Part shown: positions 3,511 to 10,953 of the stretch, in pieces
Position numbering within the stretch: the first letter of the stretch is position 1
Layout: every line of letters begins with the position of its first letter
Notes under the pieces: model-generated
Database searches by the model: none
What the model saw: the letters and a program-made list of their open reading frames with translations, nothing else
What the model was told of the DNA's origin: nothing
Program-made: the position numbers and the translations under genes
Source: Chthonomonas calidirosea
GTDB taxonomy: Bacteria; Armatimonadota; Fimbriimonadia; Fimbriimonadales; Fimbriimonadaceae
Assembly (NCBI GenBank): GCA_945882415.1
Contig: CAMCWC010000002.1
Coordinates: forward strand, 62,001 to 126,000
Direction: 5' to 3'
Length of the DNA: 64,000 nt

Positions 3511-4047
3511 TCAGAACATGCAGCCGCTGATCGTCGACTTCGAGATCGAAGCGAGTTTCAGCGCTGGCAGAGCTGCGCCGTGCTTTCGCATGGCAGCCAC
3601 CGCTTTCTCAAGGTGAGCGCGGGAGACTCCGGTCCAGATCTCCGGGTATCTCGGCTTTCCGGTCTTGGTCGCGACGAAGGTGAAATCCGCCCCGCGTTCG
3701 ACCTTGAAGCCCCGAATCACGACACCCTTAGTATCGGCAAGGACCGGAACCGAGAGGCCCACTTTCACGGCGTTCGCCCGGACCTCGGCCAGTGTCCCAT
3801 CCATCACCACAAGAACTTGCGCCTTTCCGGCGAGCTCTTTTGCAAGGCTGTTGATCCCCGGAGTTGCCTTCGGATCTGCCGGACAGTTCTTCTTCAGAAA
3901 GAAAATGAACGTCGGCTTACCAACGAGGCTCTTCTCCGTGTAAGTCTTCCCGTCGGATGCAGAAAGGCGAAACGCCGGTGCTTCGTACTTACAAGCCACC
4001 CCGGAAGCCGCGAGAACCAATGCGCCAAGACTCAGCAAGCTTCGCAT
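3511..4047 (-). CDS. Redoxin/thioredoxin-fold exported protein
   Basis: A 178-residue protein with an N-terminal hydrophobic segment ending in GVAC, a weak lipobox, then an AhpC/TSA-Redoxin-like fold. One cysteine follows the first core strand (FFLKKNCPAD), where peroxiredoxins carry the peroxidatic cysteine, but the usual PxxxTxxC context is missing. A further cysteine lies at the extreme C-terminus (SGCMF). It probably sits outside the cytoplasmic membrane and acts in thiol or peroxide chemistry. Its ATG overlaps the stop of the upstream prepilin gene by one base (TGATG), so the two are translated from one message. Confidence 0.7.
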   Translation of the reverse strand: MRSLLSLGALVLAASGVACKYEAPAFRLSASDGKTYTEKSLVGKPTFIFFLKKNCPADPKATPGINSLAKELAGKAQVLVVMDGTLAEVRANAVKVGLSVPVLADTKGVVIRGFKVERGADFTFVATKTGKPRYPEIWTGVSRAHLEKAVAAMRKHGAALPALKLASISKSTISGCMF

Positions 4048-4766
4048 CAGTTTCGCCCCTCGTTTCGCGGATCGTAGTTACCGGCAAAGATGCCTCGATC
4101 AAGGTCTCGCCACCACGTTTGTGACCACTTGCCAAACTTGGCGTGGCCATCCACATACGTGTAGTTCTGACCGCCTGAGAACGCCGTTAGCTTCAGCTCC
4201 TTAGTCAGACCAGTTGCCGGATCGAACGTCAGGTTCTGCATGAAGCCGTTCGTTTCCTCGCTCGGGGTACCCCAATAGAACGGGTGGAAGTGGTCGCGCA
4301 CGATGTTGTCATTCGCCTGCGCGATGTAGATCGTGCTTGCCGGCCCCACGATTGAGCTCGTGTTCGCGAACTTGCCCGACTGATAGCCTCCGCTCATGAA
4401 GGCATTCAGGAAGTAGCTCGACATCCGGTAGTTCAAGAAGGTCGGATCGGTCACCGGCAAACTCGCCGGCGGCCAATTGTTGGATGCGTCAGAAGGCGAT
4501 CGGTAGATCGCCCGGTTCTTGATGTACGGCTGCACCTGAGTCGTCCAGGTGTTCTCCTTCACCGGAAAACTCGACAGCGGGAAGTAGTCGTCGAAGTCGT
4601 TGGCGTACATGAGGAACGCGACCCCGAGCTGACGACAGTTGCTCAGATCCTGAGTCTTCTTCGCGGCTTCCTTTGCCTGGGCAAAAACCGGGAACAGGAT
4701 GGCGGCAAGAATCGCAATGATTGCGATGACGACGAGAAGTTCGATAAGCGTGAATGCCTTTTTCAT
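4047..4766 (-). CDS. Prepilin-type N-terminal cleavage/methylation protein (DG-H-tail type)
   Basis: The N-terminus FTLIELLVVIAIIAIL is a class III signal cut by prepilin peptidase, with the conserved Glu5. The rest is a short globular domain ending in a YVDGHAKFG motif, typical of the large DUF1559-like pseudopilin families of Armatimonadota and Planctomycetota. Such proteins are expanded in these phyla, mostly with unknown roles in secretion or surface structures. No pilus assembly gene is adjacent. It leads a two-gene unit with the redoxin-like gene. Confidence 0.88.
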   Translation of the reverse strand: MKKAFTLIELLVVIAIIAILAAILFPVFAQAKEAAKKTQDLSNCRQLGVAFLMYANDFDDYFPLSSFPVKENTWTTQVQPYIKNRAIYRSPSDASNNWPPASLPVTDPTFLNYRMSSYFLNAFMSGGYQSGKFANTSSIVGPASTIYIAQANDNIVRDHFHPFYWGTPSEETNGFMQNLTFDPATGLTKELKLTAFSGGQNYTYVDGHAKFGKWSQTWWRDLDRGIFAGNYDPRNEGRN

Positions 4767-4827: not shown

Positions 4828-5253
4828 TTACGAATGCCGGGGAGGGGGAGAAATCGGCGCGGCGCTCGTTACAATGGCCGCCGGAGCAGCCGACAGAATG
4901 GGCATGAACACGACCGGTGAGGAAACGATGACAACCACAAACGGTGGAGCTTCCACCGCGTAGTCCGCCATCAATCCGCTCTTCGTTACTTCCTCTTCCT
5001 GGGGCGCGACTTTTTTCTGGTTGCACAAGCAAGGCAGAAACTCGGCGTCTCCCGGTTTTGGAGCAACGATTTTGGGGCCGTTTGCCGTGTCATTCGCTAC
5101 TGCCTGAACCTTAGCGGTCGGACAATGTCGGCTCAGCGTTACCGAACGAAGGGTAACTCCCGACGATGCGACGGCGATGACGAGCGCGAATCCAAAGCAC
5201 AACATTTGCCGCCAGCGCTTCTTCAGCGCCCAGCGTATTGCTTGGATATCCAC
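4828..5253 (-). CDS. Small membrane-anchored protein of unknown function
   Basis: 141 residues: a basic N-terminus, one transmembrane segment (about residues 18-36), a polar domain with four cysteines (one in RHCP, two in CLC, one near the membrane) and a hydrophobic, Ala/Pro-rich C-terminal third. I do not recognise a family. The call is supported by a TATCTT element six bases before the GTG start at 5253, the same arrangement seen before several firm genes here. It ends 61 bases before the prepilin gene on the same strand and could be co-transcribed with it. Confidence 0.6.
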   Translation of the reverse strand: MDIQAIRWALKKRWRQMLCFGFALVIAVASSGVTLRSVTLSRHCPTAKVQAVANDTANGPKIVAPKPGDAEFLPCLCNQKKVAPQEEEVTKSGLMADYAVEAPPFVVVIVSSPVVFMPILSAAPAAIVTSAAPISPPPRHS

Positions 5254-5278: not shown

Positions 5279-5911
5279 CTATGCCAGGCGGAACTTAGCT
5301 TCGGTTTTCGCCGCGATCTCTTGCTCCGTCACGTCCGGAGCCAGCTCGAGCAGGACCAGTCCATCTTCTGAAACTTCGAAAACGCAGAGGTCCGTAACGA
5401 TGAGGTCCACGCAGCCTTTGCCCGTGAGCGGCAAGCGGCACTCGCGCAGAACCTTCGATTCGCCCGCCTTGTTGGTGTGCTCCATCACTACGACGACGCG
5501 CTTGACTCCGGCCACCAGGTCCATGGCACCGCCCATGCCCTTGACCATCTTTCCGGGAATCATCCAGTTCGCTAGATCTCCGTTCTCGCTCACTTCCATC
5601 GCGCCCAAGATGCTGAGGTCGATGTGCCCACCTCGGATCATCGCGAAAGAGTCAGCCGAGGAGAAGTACGACGTGCCAGGAATTTCGGTCACCGTCTGCT
5701 TTCCAGCGTTGATCAGGTCCGGGTCAACTTCGCTTTCCAGCGGAAACGGGCCAAGGCCGAGCATGCCGTTTTCGCTCTGCAGGACCACATCCATCCCGTC
5801 CGGAATGTAGTTCGCTACCAGGGTCGGAATCCCGATTCCGAGATTCACATAGAAGCCGTCGCGAAGCTCCTTCGCGGCACGTTGAGCAAGCTGATCTCGG
5901 TTCCAAGGCAT
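5279..5911 (-). CDS. scoB: 3-oxoacid CoA-transferase subunit B
   Basis: 210 residues of the class I CoA-transferase beta subunit. The catalytic glutamate is E47 in the ENGMLG motif, which forms the glutamyl-CoA thioester intermediate. With subunit A it moves CoA between succinyl-CoA and acetoacetate or a related 3-oxoacid, linking ketone-body or branched-chain catabolism to the TCA cycle. The frame is open further upstream, but family alignment begins at MPWNRDQ, and an AAGGAG Shine-Dalgarno lies about seven bases before this ATG. Its partner scoA is on the same strand but about 4.3 kb upstream, which is unusual. Confidence 0.93.
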
Positions 5912-6012
5912 GGTGTTGAACTCCTTCGTTCTTTCACATATTCTGACACCGACACTTCTGTAGTTATTTTCTATGAAAAACTCGACTGATGACATTCTAG
6001 ACTTGACAAACA

Positions 6013-6024
6013 GGGGGGGGGGGG
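6013..6024. repeat. Poly-G homopolymer tract (12 G)
   Basis: Twelve consecutive G lie five bases after a perfect TTGACA (6003-6008) and 19 bases before the ATG at 6044, in the gap between divergent scoB and the Cys-rich peptide gene. Length change by slipped-strand pairing would alter promoter or leader spacing. It is also a classic place for sequencing error. Confidence 0.8.
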
Positions 6025-6043
6025 ATGGGAAGATGCAGTTGTT

Positions 6044-6289
6044 ATGAAACGCCTTTTTCAAACAACGCTTGTCGCTGCTATCATCGTCGTTGTCGCTGCC
6101 AACAGCATTGCAAACCCGCCCACAGCATTCCCATCATGTGCAGAAAATGTGAGCCCGGCTAACCCAGGATGGGGTTGTGGCAGCGTGAGCACGTGGGCAG
6201 CTTGCCGAGGTTGCTGTGAGAATTTCTGTGGTTCTATCGGTAGTGCAACTTACAATTCTTACGTCCAGGCGTGTGATAGAAAGTTTTAA
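6044..6289 (+). CDS. Small secreted cysteine-rich protein
   Basis: 81 residues with a clear Sec signal peptide (MKR followed by a hydrophobic core, cleavage probable near residue 24). The short mature part has seven cysteines, including a CC pair, within about 50 residues. I recognise no family; disulfide-stabilised small toxins, bacteriocins and envelope proteins are all possible. Its stop overlaps the ATG of the next gene (TAATG), so the two are coupled. Base composition of this gene and the next two is visibly AT-richer than their neighbours, consistent with recent gain. Confidence 0.65.
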
Positions 6290-6795
6290 TGAAGTCTAGC
6301 GACAAATTGTATGCACTTGCAACGGCGGCGATCATCATCGTTGCCGCCGTTGCGTGGGTGAAACCGTGGAAGCCATACCGAGGACCAGTCTGGGACCATC
6401 TGATTCAGGAAAAGGGACCAGACTATGAAGTTCTTTATCGCGTTCTGACAATTGGCGAACCAAGCAAAGTTCAGCAAGTTAGCCGCGAAGACTTCATGTT
6501 TGTGGTTAACTCAACGTCACACAAGAACGAGAGAGTCCAAGCTGGAGCTTACGATGCGCTTGCGTTTCTTTCACGCAATCCAAAATATCAATCAGAGGCA
6601 TGGCAAAAGATTCGGAGCTTAAAAAACGCCAAGAACCAAAATCTTGCCAAAAAGTACTGGTGGGCTGCCATGAAGGCAAGATTGCCGGAGATCAAAGGAG
6701 AGCTAACAGCTTCCCAGTCGAGTCAAGATCCGCAGATTGCTGCAGAAGCCTCTCGACTAATTGCAATCGGCAAAGAGGCCAAATGGATGGAGTAA
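6289..6795 (+). CDS. Single-pass membrane protein of unknown function
   Basis: 168 residues: short N-terminus, one transmembrane helix (about residues 9-25) and an alpha-helical, lysine- and alanine-rich domain outside the membrane. The helices (NERVQAGAYDALAFL, later AAEASRLIAIG) have a HEAT/ARM-like flavour, but I cannot assign a family. It is translationally coupled to the cysteine-rich protein before it and overlaps the pseudopilin after it by 13 bases, so the three form one unit. Confidence 0.65.
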   Translation: MKSSDKLYALATAAIIIVAAVAWVKPWKPYRGPVWDHLIQEKGPDYEVLYRVLTIGEPSKVQQVSREDFMFVVNSTSHKNERVQAGAYDALAFLSRNPKYQSEAWQKIRSLKNAKNQNLAKKYWWAAMKARLPEIKGELTASQSSQDPQIAAEASRLIAIGKEAKWME

Positions 6796-7403
6796 TACGA
6801 AAGCGAGCACAAATCGCCGCCACGTTGGTTGAGATTTTGACCGTAGTAGCCATCATCATTGTTTTGGCCGGAATCTCGTTTCCAGTTTACGCCCACGTCA
6901 CTACGACAGCGCGACATTCAACAACGCTTAATGCGCTTCACCAGAACTACCTCGCGATTCAGCTATACCAGGAACGGGAAACCATCCAAGTTTTGCCATA
7001 CGCCCTTTCTGATACTTCAATTTATACCATTCGAACGCGTAACGAACTCTGGGGCTCAAAATTTGAACTTGATCAAGAACCACCGCGACTAGCCGACCTT
7101 CTCTATCCTTTCCTCAAGGATCGAAGCGCGCTCCGATCACATCGAGCACCAGTCGTTCCTCCGCTTGCCGAGATGTTTGGCAAGGACTATTTTGGCTGGC
7201 GCTATGATGAGCAGCGTGCGATATTAGGAGTCGGCCCGACATACAGCCCCGAAACTGCCGTCTGGATGAACGAATATGTGGATTACGACGACCCGATGAA
7301 TGGCAACGGTCGCATTGGATGCCTGTACGAGAGCGGCAGCACCAAAATGGTTCCAAGACTGGAGTGTCTCAGCGGTGTCCGTGACCTCGCTCTGGAGCAA
7401 TAA
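6783..7403 (+). CDS. Pseudopilin-like protein with prepilin N-terminal signal
   Basis: 206 residues. The start used is the ATG at 6783, overlapping the previous gene by 13 bases. The resulting N-terminus, basic leader then ATLVEILTVVAIIIVLAG, is a prepilin peptidase signal with the conserved glutamate. Longer forms from 6600 would bury this signal behind a run of shadow-frame residues. The globular domain is unlike the prepilin at 4047-4766. Its place in a three-gene unit with a cysteine-rich secreted peptide hints at delivery or display of that peptide, but this is speculation. Confidence 0.72.
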   Translation: MDGVIRKRAQIAATLVEILTVVAIIIVLAGISFPVYAHVTTTARHSTTLNALHQNYLAIQLYQERETIQVLPYALSDTSIYTIRTRNELWGSKFELDQEPPRLADLLYPFLKDRSALRSHRAPVVPPLAEMFGKDYFGWRYDEQRAILGVGPTYSPETAVWMNEYVDYDDPMNGNGRIGCLYESGSTKMVPRLECLSGVRDLALEQ

Positions 7404-7408
7404 CAGAA

Positions 7409-8419
7409 CTAGGTGGATCGATCTCCGCTAAATGCGAGCAGCAACTCGGGACGAACGCCGCTTTCCGCGAACTCAATCGCCAAGTCAGCAATCGCCGGCG
7501 CAAACTTGAAGCCGTGCCCGCTGCAGGCGCTGATGCCGAGCGCGTTGGCCCGAACCCAGTCGATGATGAAGTCGCCATCGACCGTATTGGTGTACCGGCA
7601 GGCCGCTTTCTGAACCACTCGCGCTTCCGGGCCGAGGAACCGAGCGACGTTCGATGCGATGCCAGGCAATTGGGCGAAAGGATCCGCTAGCCCAAGCCCA
7701 GCCACCGGCCCGGGCAAGTGCTCGCCGACCTTGACTAAGGTGCAATCGGCGTGCGCCGGAATGCCATACAGAAAGCTGCCTTGCCCGCCATCGAACCCGA
7801 ATACCGGCAACGTAGCGGAAACGCCCTCCAGCCAAGCGATGGTTTGCATGGTCACCGTTAGGTTCCACTTCGGGCAAAGCGCCTTCATTCCCGGCCCGAG
7901 GGCAAAAAAGCTCAATCCAGAATCGGCGACCGCGGGAACGCCGAATTCAAACTGCACGCCGAGCCCCTGCAGACGCTCGAACAAGCCAAGGCAAATCCGA
8001 TCCGAGTAAAGAAACCCGGCATCCGGCTCAAAAACGGTCTCATATCCATCGGGCAGCGGTTCCGGAACTGGGTGTCCAGACTCAATTCGGAGTCCGTACT
8101 GCTCGGCGGAGCCACGAACTCCCCGGAGTAGGTCGCCGTCGCCCGGCCCAGCATAAACCACCCCACGCGCTTCGTGGACCGTCGTTCCTAAATCTGACGC
8201 CAGTTCGCCCCAAAGCCCAAACGCTCGCTGCATCAGCGGCACGTACGCCGCCGACTCGAAGTAGGCAAAGCGGTAAATGCGAGAGCCGCCGATTGACGAT
8301 GTACCCGGTCCTAACGGTGGTTCCAAGGACCGGACCCGCACGTTGTAGCCGCGCTGGACGAGTCGCCAAGCTAGGCAGAGTCCGTAGACCCCCGCGCCGT
8401 ACACCGTTGCCGTTTTCAT
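7409..8419 (-). CDS. Monomeric sarcosine oxidase-like FAD-dependent amine oxidase
   Basis: 336 residues of the DAO/glycine oxidase superfamily. The FAD-binding GAGVYG is at residues 8-13. The C-terminal motif CRYTNTVDGDFIIDW (from C274) followed by CSGHGFKFAPA matches monomeric sarcosine oxidase and N-methyltryptophan oxidase, where this cysteine holds FAD covalently. It likely oxidises an N-methyl amino acid with release of hydrogen peroxide. It is slightly shorter than the family's roughly 380 residues. It is divergent from the L,D-transpeptidase gene with only 29 bases between starts and convergent with the pseudopilin gene. Confidence 0.85.
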   Translation of the reverse strand: MKTATVYGAGVYGLCLAWRLVQRGYNVRVRSLEPPLGPGTSSIGGSRIYRFAYFESAAYVPLMQRAFGLWGELASDLGTTVHEARGVVYAGPGDGDLLRGVRGSAEQYGLRIESGHPVPEPLPDGYETVFEPDAGFLYSDRICLGLFERLQGLGVQFEFGVPAVADSGLSFFALGPGMKALCPKWNLTVTMQTIAWLEGVSATLPVFGFDGGQGSFLYGIPAHADCTLVKVGEHLPGPVAGLGLADPFAQLPGIASNVARFLGPEARVVQKAACRYTNTVDGDFIIDWVRANALGISACSGHGFKFAPAIADLAIEFAESGVRPELLLAFSGDRST

Positions 8420-8425
8420 TTCCTT

Positions 8426-8431
8426 AGATTA
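8426..8431 (-). promoter_or_regulatory. -10 element, leaderless promoter of the sarcosine-oxidase-like gene
   Basis: On the minus strand TAATCT is followed by six bases (AAGGAA) and the ATG at 8419. AAGGAA could also serve as a Shine-Dalgarno, but it abuts the ATG too closely. Confidence 0.5.
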
Positions 8432-8436
8432 TTCGG

Positions 8437-8442
8437 TAACGT
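8437..8442 (+). promoter_or_regulatory. -10 element, leaderless promoter of the L,D-transpeptidase gene
   Basis: TAACGT is followed by six bases and the GTG at 8449. It is back to back with the minus-strand element at 8426-8431, only five bases away. Confidence 0.55.
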
Positions 8443-8448
8443 TCCATC

Positions 8449-9138
8449 GTGGATTTCCGCGTGGTGCTTGCCTTGATCCTGGCAAACGTGCTGGTCGCTT
8501 GCTCTGGCCAAGCTGAGCCTGATCGGGCCGCCGTTGCCGCCGCCCGAGTTAAACCGCAATTGGACAAGGAGTTGAAGGCGATCGGCGTTACGTATCCGCC
8601 GAAACGGTTGCTCTTCCGCGCATTCAAAACGGAGAAGCGCCTTGATGTTTGGGTTGGAAACGCGTCCGGAAAACTCAAGAGATTCAAGTCGTATCCGATC
8701 TTGGCGATGTCTGGCAAAACCGGTCCGAAACGTAAAGAAGGCGACCGGCAGGTGCCGGAAGGCATCTACCAAATCGACCGGTTCAACCCAAAGAGCCAAT
8801 TCCACTTGTCGCTTGGCATCAACTATCCGAACGCCGCCGACAAAGTATTCGCCGACCGAGAAGCTCCCGGAAGCGACATCTTCATCCACGGCAGCAATAA
8901 GAGCATTGGTTGCCTCGCCATGGGCGATCCGGCCATTGAGGAGATTTACACTCTCGCGCGGTCGGTCAAGGGCCCCATTCCCGTCCACATTTTCCCGTGG
9001 CAATTCACCAGCAACGAGACGGTCGACACGCCGCTTTGGCAACAGCTGCGCACGATTGACCTCGACTTCCAATTGAAACCGAGGGTCCAAAAAATCCAAG
9101 TGAGCAAGCTCGGGGCCTACGAGCTAGTTTCACGCTAG
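8449..9138 (+). CDS. L,D-transpeptidase (YkuD/YafK type) lipoprotein
   Basis: 229 residues. A short signal peptide ends in a lipobox (LVAC, C18). The catalytic domain carries the YkuD signature HGSNKSIGC with H147 and nucleophile C155. The sequence style (WVGNASGKLKRFKSYPI, then PEGIYQID) is closest to YafK/ErfK-like enzymes that act on peptidoglycan or anchor lipoproteins to it. The GTG start is supported by a -10 element six bases upstream. Its last four bases overlap the convergent gene at 9135. Confidence 0.87.
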   Translation: MDFRVVLALILANVLVACSGQAEPDRAAVAAARVKPQLDKELKAIGVTYPPKRLLFRAFKTEKRLDVWVGNASGKLKRFKSYPILAMSGKTGPKRKEGDRQVPEGIYQIDRFNPKSQFHLSLGINYPNAADKVFADREAPGSDIFIHGSNKSIGCLAMGDPAIEEIYTLARSVKGPIPVHIFPWQFTSNETVDTPLWQQLRTIDLDFQLKPRVQKIQVSKLGAYELVSR

Positions 9139-10208
9139 AAGTTTCGCAGTTCGTCGCGATGCTTCACAAGCGCCAAGTAACTCGTCGGATAGTCGACCAT
9201 CTTTTCCTGGACGGAGAACATGTCGCGCATCGGCGTCCAGGCTCCGTGAAGGCTCTTCCAAAGCCGGTTGTATTCGGCAAAGTCGCTGGTCGATCTCGGG
9301 TTGGCAGGCACCGATTCTGCCGCTTTGCGCATGGAGCGCAGGATGCTTAAATCCGTTGCCTTTTGCACAAATCCACGTCGGTAGAGCCAGTCTTGAACGG
9401 GCTCATTCTGGAGGTCATCCTTTCGAAGTCCAAGGTCGGTCTGCACCTGCGCCCAGTCCGATTCGCTCGCGACTGTGCTCATCGTGTAGCGATAACAAGC
9501 AAGGTTTGAGCCGATGTCCTTTCGGGCGTCGGGTAGTTCACCGAGTCCCTCAAGAACGGCCGCAGCCTCATCAGAACTCGGCTTAAGATCGCGGACAACC
9601 TTCATCAAGTCCTCCTCCACCCAGGCTCGAACTGCGGTTGCGATCTCGTTCGTGTCCGATCCGCAATGCCTCGCCACATTCGCTGCGAGGGTCAGCTCTT
9701 TGAGGGCTTCGGTTCGTTTGCCTTCGGCCAGCGCCAGTTTCGCCTGGGAGAGCTTGATGCGGGCGACCTGCCGCATCGTCGCATATTCCGGCATAAGGAC
9801 GGCATAACCGAGTCGGTAGTCGCGCTTGAAGCGGCAGTTCGTTGCCGTTGCAGCTCGATCGATTTCCGGCATCAAATACGCCACCTGGGCCAGGCCCTGT
9901 CGAATTTCCTCAGGCGAAGGATTGCGCTTGGGATCGTACAAGCCCGAGTAGATCTTTTTGGCATGTTGATCCATGCTCAGCAACCCGTCGGAAACGATTT
10001 GGTAATACGGGGCAGCGTTTGGATACAGCGTCGCCAAGGTATTTGGCCCGGCTAGATCGCTTGCGGTAATCGGGAGTCCAGACGCGCGGGCAAGCTCAAA
10101 TTCAGCTTGGATCTGCGACTCAAGCACCGCTTGGTACGTGAGCCAGCCCAGGGCTAATCCAATGGTTCCGGCAACAAGCGTGAGAGATTTACGGCGTCGA
10201 GATTCCAA
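9135..10208 (-). CDS. Membrane-anchored helical protein of unknown function
   Basis: 357 residues. A basic N-terminus and one transmembrane segment (about 9-27) are followed by a long alpha-helical domain. A region near residues 150-200 (KLSQAKLALAEGKRTEALKELTLAANVAR) resembles a TPR-like helix pair. I do not recognise the family. The start is a TTG with AGGAG about seven bases before it. The gene follows scoA on the same strand after 43 bases and may be expressed with it. Confidence 0.72.
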   Translation of the reverse strand: MESRRRKSLTLVAGTIGLALGWLTYQAVLESQIQAEFELARASGLPITASDLAGPNTLATLYPNAAPYYQIVSDGLLSMDQHAKKIYSGLYDPKRNPSPEEIRQGLAQVAYLMPEIDRAATATNCRFKRDYRLGYAVLMPEYATMRQVARIKLSQAKLALAEGKRTEALKELTLAANVARHCGSDTNEIATAVRAWVEEDLMKVVRDLKPSSDEAAAVLEGLGELPDARKDIGSNLACYRYTMSTVASESDWAQVQTDLGLRKDDLQNEPVQDWLYRRGFVQKATDLSILRSMRKAAESVPANPRSTSDFAEYNRLWKSLHGAWTPMRDMFSVQEKMVDYPTSYLALVKHRDELRNF

Positions 10209-10251
10209 TTTTCGCTCCTACTGGGAAGACGCAAAATGCTGGCAACTTCGT

Positions 10252-10953
10252 TCAGGCCGCTTCGCGGACGGTTCGACGCTCGATTCGCTTCTCAAAGTGC
10301 GTGCCCAGCAGCATCCGGTTCACATAGATTCCTGGCGTGTGGATGTGGTCAGCATCGAGGCTTCCCGTCGGTACCAATTCTTCCACTTCGGCAACGCAAA
10401 CGCGCCCGGCCGTGGCCATCATCGGGTTGAAGTTTCGCGCCGTGCGGCGGTAGACCAAATTGCCCGACTCATCGCCTTTCCACGCCTTAACGATGCTGAG
10501 GTCCGCCACAAGCCCGGTCTCCATCACGTACATTTCGCCATTGAACTCGCGAGTTTCTTTGCCTTCCGCGACCAAGGTGCCATATCCGGTCTTCGTGTAA
10601 AACGCCGGAATCCCCGCCCCGCCGGCGCGGATGCGCTCGGCCAAAGTTCCCTGCGGATTGAACTCAAGCTCGAGCTCGCCCGAAAGGTACTGCCGCTCAA
10701 ACTCGCCGTTCTCGCCGACGTAGCTACTCACCATCTTCTTGATCTGGCGCGTCTGCAAAAGAATCCCGAGGCCAAAGTCATCGACGCCGCAGTTGTTACT
10801 GACGACCGTAATGTCCTTCACTCCCGAATCGCGCAAAGCCAGAATCAGGTGCTCTGGGATGCCGCAGAGTCCAAACCCTCCGGCCATGATCGTCATGCCG
10901 TCAAATAGCAAACCGCTCAGCGCGCTGGTGGAATCGGCGTAAACCTTGTTCAT
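10252..10953 (-). CDS. scoA: 3-oxoacid CoA-transferase subunit A
   Basis: 233 residues of the class I CoA-transferase alpha subunit, with the [10 protein letters not shown] loop near residues 25-34 and the later [15 protein letters not shown] and RRTARNFNP motifs of succinyl-CoA:3-ketoacid transferases. It forms the active enzyme with ScoB. A GAGG Shine-Dalgarno lies about six bases before the ATG. In most genomes scoA is followed at once by scoB; here scoB is 4.3 kb away on the same strand. Confidence 0.93.

Follow-up and report, generated by a model that had tools for sequence, protein, structure and literature searches.

In this study, three overlapping forward-strand genes were analyzed in a 64-kb stretch of DNA (hereafter the window), on contig 2 of genome G000 (99% complete, 3.36 Mb). 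The first gene, g1 (6044..6289), encodes P, a peptide of 81 residues with seven cysteines, predicted from its Sec-type signal peptide to be exported. The second, g2 (6289..6795), encodes H, a protein of 168 residues with a hydrophobic segment at its N-terminus, predicted to be membrane-anchored and built of HEAT-type helical repeats. The third, g3 (6783..7403, with its ATG at 6783), encodes a diverged putative prepilin or pseudopilin of 206 residues. g1 and g2 overlap by 1 base, g2 and g3 by 13 bases. A preliminary description of the locus had given the same coordinates, lengths and overlaps, and its 81-residue, putatively secreted protein with seven cysteines is confirmed. It had also reported a composition unlike that of the neighbours, and this holds: GC is 0.501 for the trio against a window mean of 0.572 (equally low in only 0.7% of 1360-bp stretches), and GC3 is 0.45, 0.50 and 0.52 in g1, g2 and g3, against 0.63-0.78 in 13 neighbouring genes.

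Upstream of g1, at a distance of 19 nt from its start, lies a homopolymer of 12 G (6013..6024, + strand), for which a first-order model gives an expected number of 0.0012 in the window. No other G or C run within the 64 kb reaches 7 nt. The tract is preceded by a perfect -35-like hexamer, TTGACA (6003..6008, +), and followed, at a spacing of 20 nt from that hexamer, by GAAGAT (6029..6034, +), a weak -10-like hexamer proposed from its match to the consensus only. TTGACA is also found in genomes G014, G170 and G172, where it precedes the tract or a tract remnant. Neither the tract nor the oxidoreductase gene found in related cassettes (see below) had been part of the preliminary description.

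The trio had been placed between split scoA and scoB genes. These flanks are indeed scoB (CoA-transferase beta; 5279..5911, -) and scoA (10252..10953, -), but the trio is not alone between them: an FAD oxidoreductase, a YkuD-domain gene and an unknown ORF are also present. Among 15 other genus members having scoB, scoA and scoB are at most 30 bp apart in six (G002, G004, G005, G013, G016, G017); in the remaining ones, different genes separate them or no scoA is nearby. A YkuD gene is the insert in four members of the genus. Orthologous scoA-scoB regions do not, therefore, all contain the trio, and the segment from scoB to scoA (5279-10953) is, as judged from these comparisons, an insertion hotspot. 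Strong matches to both g1 and g2 were restricted to G000 and its sister G014 among 101 genomes searched, and a strong g2 match was found in 2 of 20 genomes within the genus. Because close matches are limited to these two genomes and the filling of the scoA-scoB gap varies across the genus, we consider the trio to be a lineage-specific insert at a variable site, in keeping with the gained cassette that had been suggested from its composition: it is AT-rich, and the site is empty or otherwise filled in genus relatives. On the other side of scoB, ORF 4828-5253 (-) is fast-changing, with 80% identity in G014; it has a CLC motif and a membrane segment, and no Pfam family was found for it.

The sister genome G014 is a pond MAG (C4_MAG_00035). 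It carries syntenic orthologues of g1, g2 and g3 that are 90, 86 and 96% identical, respectively, and its P has eight cysteines, one more than in the window. The dN/dS ratios of the pair, about 0.22 for g1, 0.21 for g2 and 0.11 for g3, indicate that all three genes evolve under purifying selection. dS of the trio (0.21-0.35) is far below that of the next genes rightward (7409-10208, dS 0.87-3.4), which may be explained by a later exchange of the cassette or by codon bias.

Searches in other genomes showed that the trio is not confined to this pair. Most of the weak P matches of the first genome search were chance frames, with one real exception: in G048, the match was a cysteine-rich peptide with an export signal, and next to it in order came genes for a membrane protein and a prepilin. 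A profile built from three rows then matched G030, G055, G027 and G117, all with the order P, H, prepilin, and profiles of H and P widened the family to the whole phylum Armatimonadota. Of 291 genomes, 25 were matched by the final P profile at E ≤ 0.003; the weakest of these matches do not represent cassettes. The H profile matched 118 genomes, in most cases weakly and probably through general HEAT proteins. An out-of-frame match inside an apparent aldo/keto reductase (G000, C2:260486) was rejected as a second P of that genome, and cysteine-rich ORFs called by the script in G186 and G080 were dropped as chance frames.

We examined 37 loci (34 plus 3), a subset of the 118 genomes with an H match. 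P was found in 26 of them: 21 were called by script, including two with an in-frame stop (G027, G117), and to these were added two more with an in-frame stop (G014C1, G167a), and G120, G003 and G005C12. This count leaves aside the P of G182, read by eye, and the split P genes of G069 and G067. A prepilin gene directly follows H in 28 of the 37 loci, 26 of the 34 and two of the three, and a gene for a DsbA-like protein comes next in 12, nine of the 34 and all three of the others. One more has a VKOR-domain protein, in the pilin position (G038). P and H occur without pilin in G038, G103 and G005C12, and H is alone in G017, G156, G158 and G141; in G000C7, G165C120 and G165C28, no P was found upstream of H. 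Genera differ in the surroundings and sites of their cassettes; compared with the flanking DNA, 23 of 24 cassettes have a higher AT content. A second cassette of G000 itself lies on contig 7 (G000:C7:69150-70291; L259 4150-5291), with overlapping H and pilin genes and a GC of 0.488 against 0.572 in the flanks. The tree of H sequences, from which those of G120 and G005C12 were left out, was not resolved and did not decide between horizontal and vertical descent.

Many Armatimonadota genomes carry diverged genes in this order, and g1, g2 and g3 therefore belong together, as had been proposed; conservation of the trio is borne out by both the G014 orthologues and the diverged cassettes. The cassette is thus almost certainly real, the window trio being an outlying member of a wider family hereafter named P-H-pilin(-DsbA). 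A literature search found no description of such a cassette, and the family is apparently undescribed so far.

P proteins share a signal peptide and 6-12 cysteines; four of these are common to all 18 aligned copies and a fifth to nearly all. The homology search that had been advised for the peptide thus yielded the G014 orthologue and the distant cassette P proteins, but no known family. Neither P nor H reached the cut-off for any Pfam, NCBIfam, PADLOC or PHROGs family, so that the statement that g1 and g2 belong to no recognised family stands, except that a fold can be proposed for H. Three NCBIfam toxin B-subunit models aligned with the G048 P (E 0.05-0.36) over its signal peptide only and were dismissed, and PDB matches to the P profile were not significant (E 0.18-0.31, the best being a vicilin peptide). 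The spacing CxxxC...CxxxC recalls alpha-hairpinins, presumably no more than a lead. For H, Pfam HEAT_2 was hit by six homologues (3.9e-5 to 0.05), all below the gathering score; the window H had no Pfam HEAT match. The family profile matched designed HEAT proteins at 2e-16, and a structure model from two sequences was all-helical (pLDDT 67), with weak fold matches. This suggests a HEAT-repeat fold.

The fourth gene, where present, is by its domain matches of the thioredoxin-fold DsbA type: a thioredoxin-fold model was above cut-off in the eight DsbA-like genes scanned, and the VKOR domain of the G038 gene scored 5.4e-15. An oxidoreductase adjoining a peptide with 6-12 cysteines implies disulfides in P. 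No DsbA or VKOR gene adjoins the window trio.

Identification of the last gene as a prepilin can be kept with a reservation. The motif is visible (AATLVEIL) but degenerate (AATLVEILTVV), and Pfam N_methyl stays under its cut-off (E 0.33), as it does for the pilins of G048 and G045; those of G030, G055, G004a and G000C7 are above it. A structure model of g3 was too poor for use (pLDDT 41). As a control, a motif filter was applied to the pilin ORFs of 18 loci and the window; it retained 18 ORFs outside cassettes, and a locus contributed no row if its pilin was filtered out. None of the 18 was preceded by an H-type gene or followed by a DsbA motif. Five had upstream a cysteine-rich frame by a lax criterion, judged to be chance. 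In a pilin tree including 25 of the 26 cassette pilins (G167a is missing), 21 of the 25 fell into one cluster (support 96/89) with a single control row. The pilins of the window and G014 form a very long branch outside this cluster, and those of G069 and G080 are outside too; the window pilin also lacks the usual pair of cysteines. The cassette thus appears mostly to have its own pilin subfamily, of which the window pilin is an outlier.

We then looked at G/C runs around the other cassettes. Of 25 cassettes, eight have a run of at least 8 nt in the 200 bp preceding P and 17 have none there (the P start being approximate in four, G014C1, G165C119, G164 and G120); the remaining 250,173 bp of the same 25 loci contain no such run. 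The tracts are G12 in the window, C13 in G030, C11 in G055, C10 in G027, G10 in G170, C9 in G048 and G117, and C8 in G120, with lengths as read in assemblies of mostly draft genomes. As G055, G027 and G117 are close relatives, the eight tracts represent six lineages. The near-identical cassettes of these three differ in their tract (C11, C10 and C9), a difference between species. Over all fetched loci (1.65 Mb, duplicates included), 11 of the 15 distinct contexts of runs of at least 8 nt were at cassettes. In G170, the tract fills the 16-nt spacer of TTGACA-N16-GATAAT; no good promoter pair was found around the remaining tracts beyond those of G170 and the window. In G069 and G067, a G10 and a G9 tract (L273 about 3950-4240 and L241 about position 1670, respectively) separate a signal-peptide frame from a cysteine-rich frame, the two being out of register at the assembled length, which makes a translational switch possible.

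These homopolymers lie where control of expression is possible, as expected of a phase-variable locus. Two placements on the same gene argue that P is switched, and from the position and enrichment of the tracts we consider P likely to be phase-variable; the wider cassette family, too, is probably so. A literature search found no report of phase variation in Armatimonadota.

We propose that the family is a phase-variable cassette which oxidises the disulfide-rich P and exports or displays it via a dedicated pseudopilin, with a probability of about 0.5 for this full chain. P would be exported by Sec, and its disulfides made by the DsbA or VKOR of the cassette or else by host enzymes. The dedicated pseudopilin would join a host assembly of the type II secretion or type IV pilus type; a host of this type possesses T2SS genes along with dozens of pseudopilins, according to a genome report (PMC4072686). 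The pseudopilin would then carry P outside the cell or display it, a step for which we see even chances. H, by its predicted inner-membrane anchor and HEAT solenoid, might hold P or shield the cell from it. Slippage in the G/C homopolymer would switch P; the observed tracts lie in the promoter region for the window and G170, and within the P frame for G069 and G067. At any one time, the cassette would be active in a fraction of the cells. The observations behind this chain are the co-occurrence of the genes, their order and overlaps, the export signal, the linkage with oxidoreductases and the enrichment in tracts. Several observations count against it. The window cassette has no adjoining DsbA, and its pilin is outside the cluster and has lost the usual cysteine pair; three loci have P and H without pilin, and most P genes (17 of the 25) are without a run of at least 8 nt. 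Against a promoter switch in the window, the -10 match is weak and the spacing is 20 nt. A more precise version appears doubtful to us: the cassette's own DsbA would oxidise a disulfide-stapled P, which the cassette's own pseudopilin would then expel through the type II/type IV filament machine of the host, with H as cognate immunity or docking partner and poly-G/C switching. If true, this would amount to a class of peptide secretion tied to filaments and serving antagonism or kin recognition among free-living Armatimonadota.

Which of P and H is broken or absent bears on a tentative alternative, namely a toxin-immunity cassette in which P is a bacteriocin-like disulfide-rich peptide, H a membrane-tethered immunity protein and the pilin an export aid. 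P is most often the broken or missing part while H persists, as in the four loci with an in-frame stop, the three with no P before H and the four with H alone, and this leans to H protecting the cell; copies are also patchy, AT-rich and diverging. However, G120 has an intact P with an interrupted H frame, so a strict toxin-immunity pair is disfavoured; G167a keeps its pilin and DsbA though its P is broken, and there is neither an ABC/C39 exporter nor a double-glycine leader. P could instead not be released at all, and be a minor adhesin of the pilus tip or a structural accessory, varied against phages or for attachment. The dedicated pilin would fit, as would phase-variable tracts, which are typical of surface structures, but the cleavable Sec signal of P, its lack of a prepilin motif and the three loci with P without adjoining pilin (G038, G103, G005C12) make this unlikely. 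A small secreted peptide with a membrane partner could also be a pheromone that H helps to sense; with no recognised signalling domain in H and no regulator in the cassette, this appears improbable.

Finally, an insertion hotspot could have brought the genes together by chance, and the G tract could be an assembly artefact, given the varied scoA-scoB inserts in the genus and the mostly draft genomes. We find this very improbable: the order is common to two distant families with overlapping frames and is found around 0 of 18 control pilins, runs of at least 8 nt occur only upstream of P within the loci of the 25 cassettes, and the trio is under purifying selection.

The proposed cassette of peptide, membrane partner and pseudopilin can be compared to known systems. 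Some bacteriocin operons carry thiol-disulfide oxidoreductases, and the cassette likewise joins a small disulfide-rich exported peptide to an adjoining membrane protein and an oxidoreductase. It differs in that a Sec signal and a pseudopilin replace the dedicated ABC exporter; the double-glycine leader and ABC/C39 exporter of class II type bacteriocins were not found in the trio. As in poly-G/C contingency loci, the tract lies between -35 and -10 or just past the signal-peptide frame, but here the hosts belong to a free-living phylum. The tracts suggest contingency switching and mark P as a trait under changing selection. Secretion of TcpF through the type IVb pilus, where operon-encoded cargo leaves via the minor pilin TcpB, is similar in pairing the gene of a small secreted protein with that of a pilin, possibly its specific carrier (PMC9565799); in the window, cargo and pilin candidates also share one putative operon. 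In the TcpF-TcpB system, the N-terminus of the cargo binds a trimeric minor pilin (PMC9565799). Unlike TcpF-TcpB, the cassette has no local pilus operon, and it combines a cysteine-rich P with a predicted HEAT membrane partner and often DsbA. g3 and its relatives appear to be of the general type of the orphan DUF1559 / H-X9-DG prepilins of Armatimonadota and Planctomycetota, but most cassette pilins cluster separately, and their partner genes are fixed. Phylum genomes hold dozens of prepilin-like genes of unknown purpose, 79 PulG-type genes being given for Fimbriimonas ginsengisoli in PMC4072686. For one pilin sub-cluster, the partners are now defined as a candidate cargo peptide, a membrane protein and an enzyme of disulfide formation, so the role of lone pseudopilins becomes directly testable.

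No relative of the window P was found in plasmids or viral contigs, nor of the G103 P in phages or viral contigs. In G103 (L214), which has the peptide and H and no pilin, an ORF about 2.5 kb away resembles a phage-type lysozyme. The second cassette of G014 (contig 1, L191 1971-4456), the one whose P has an in-frame stop, lies beside genes that presumably encode a PIN-domain toxin and its antitoxin.
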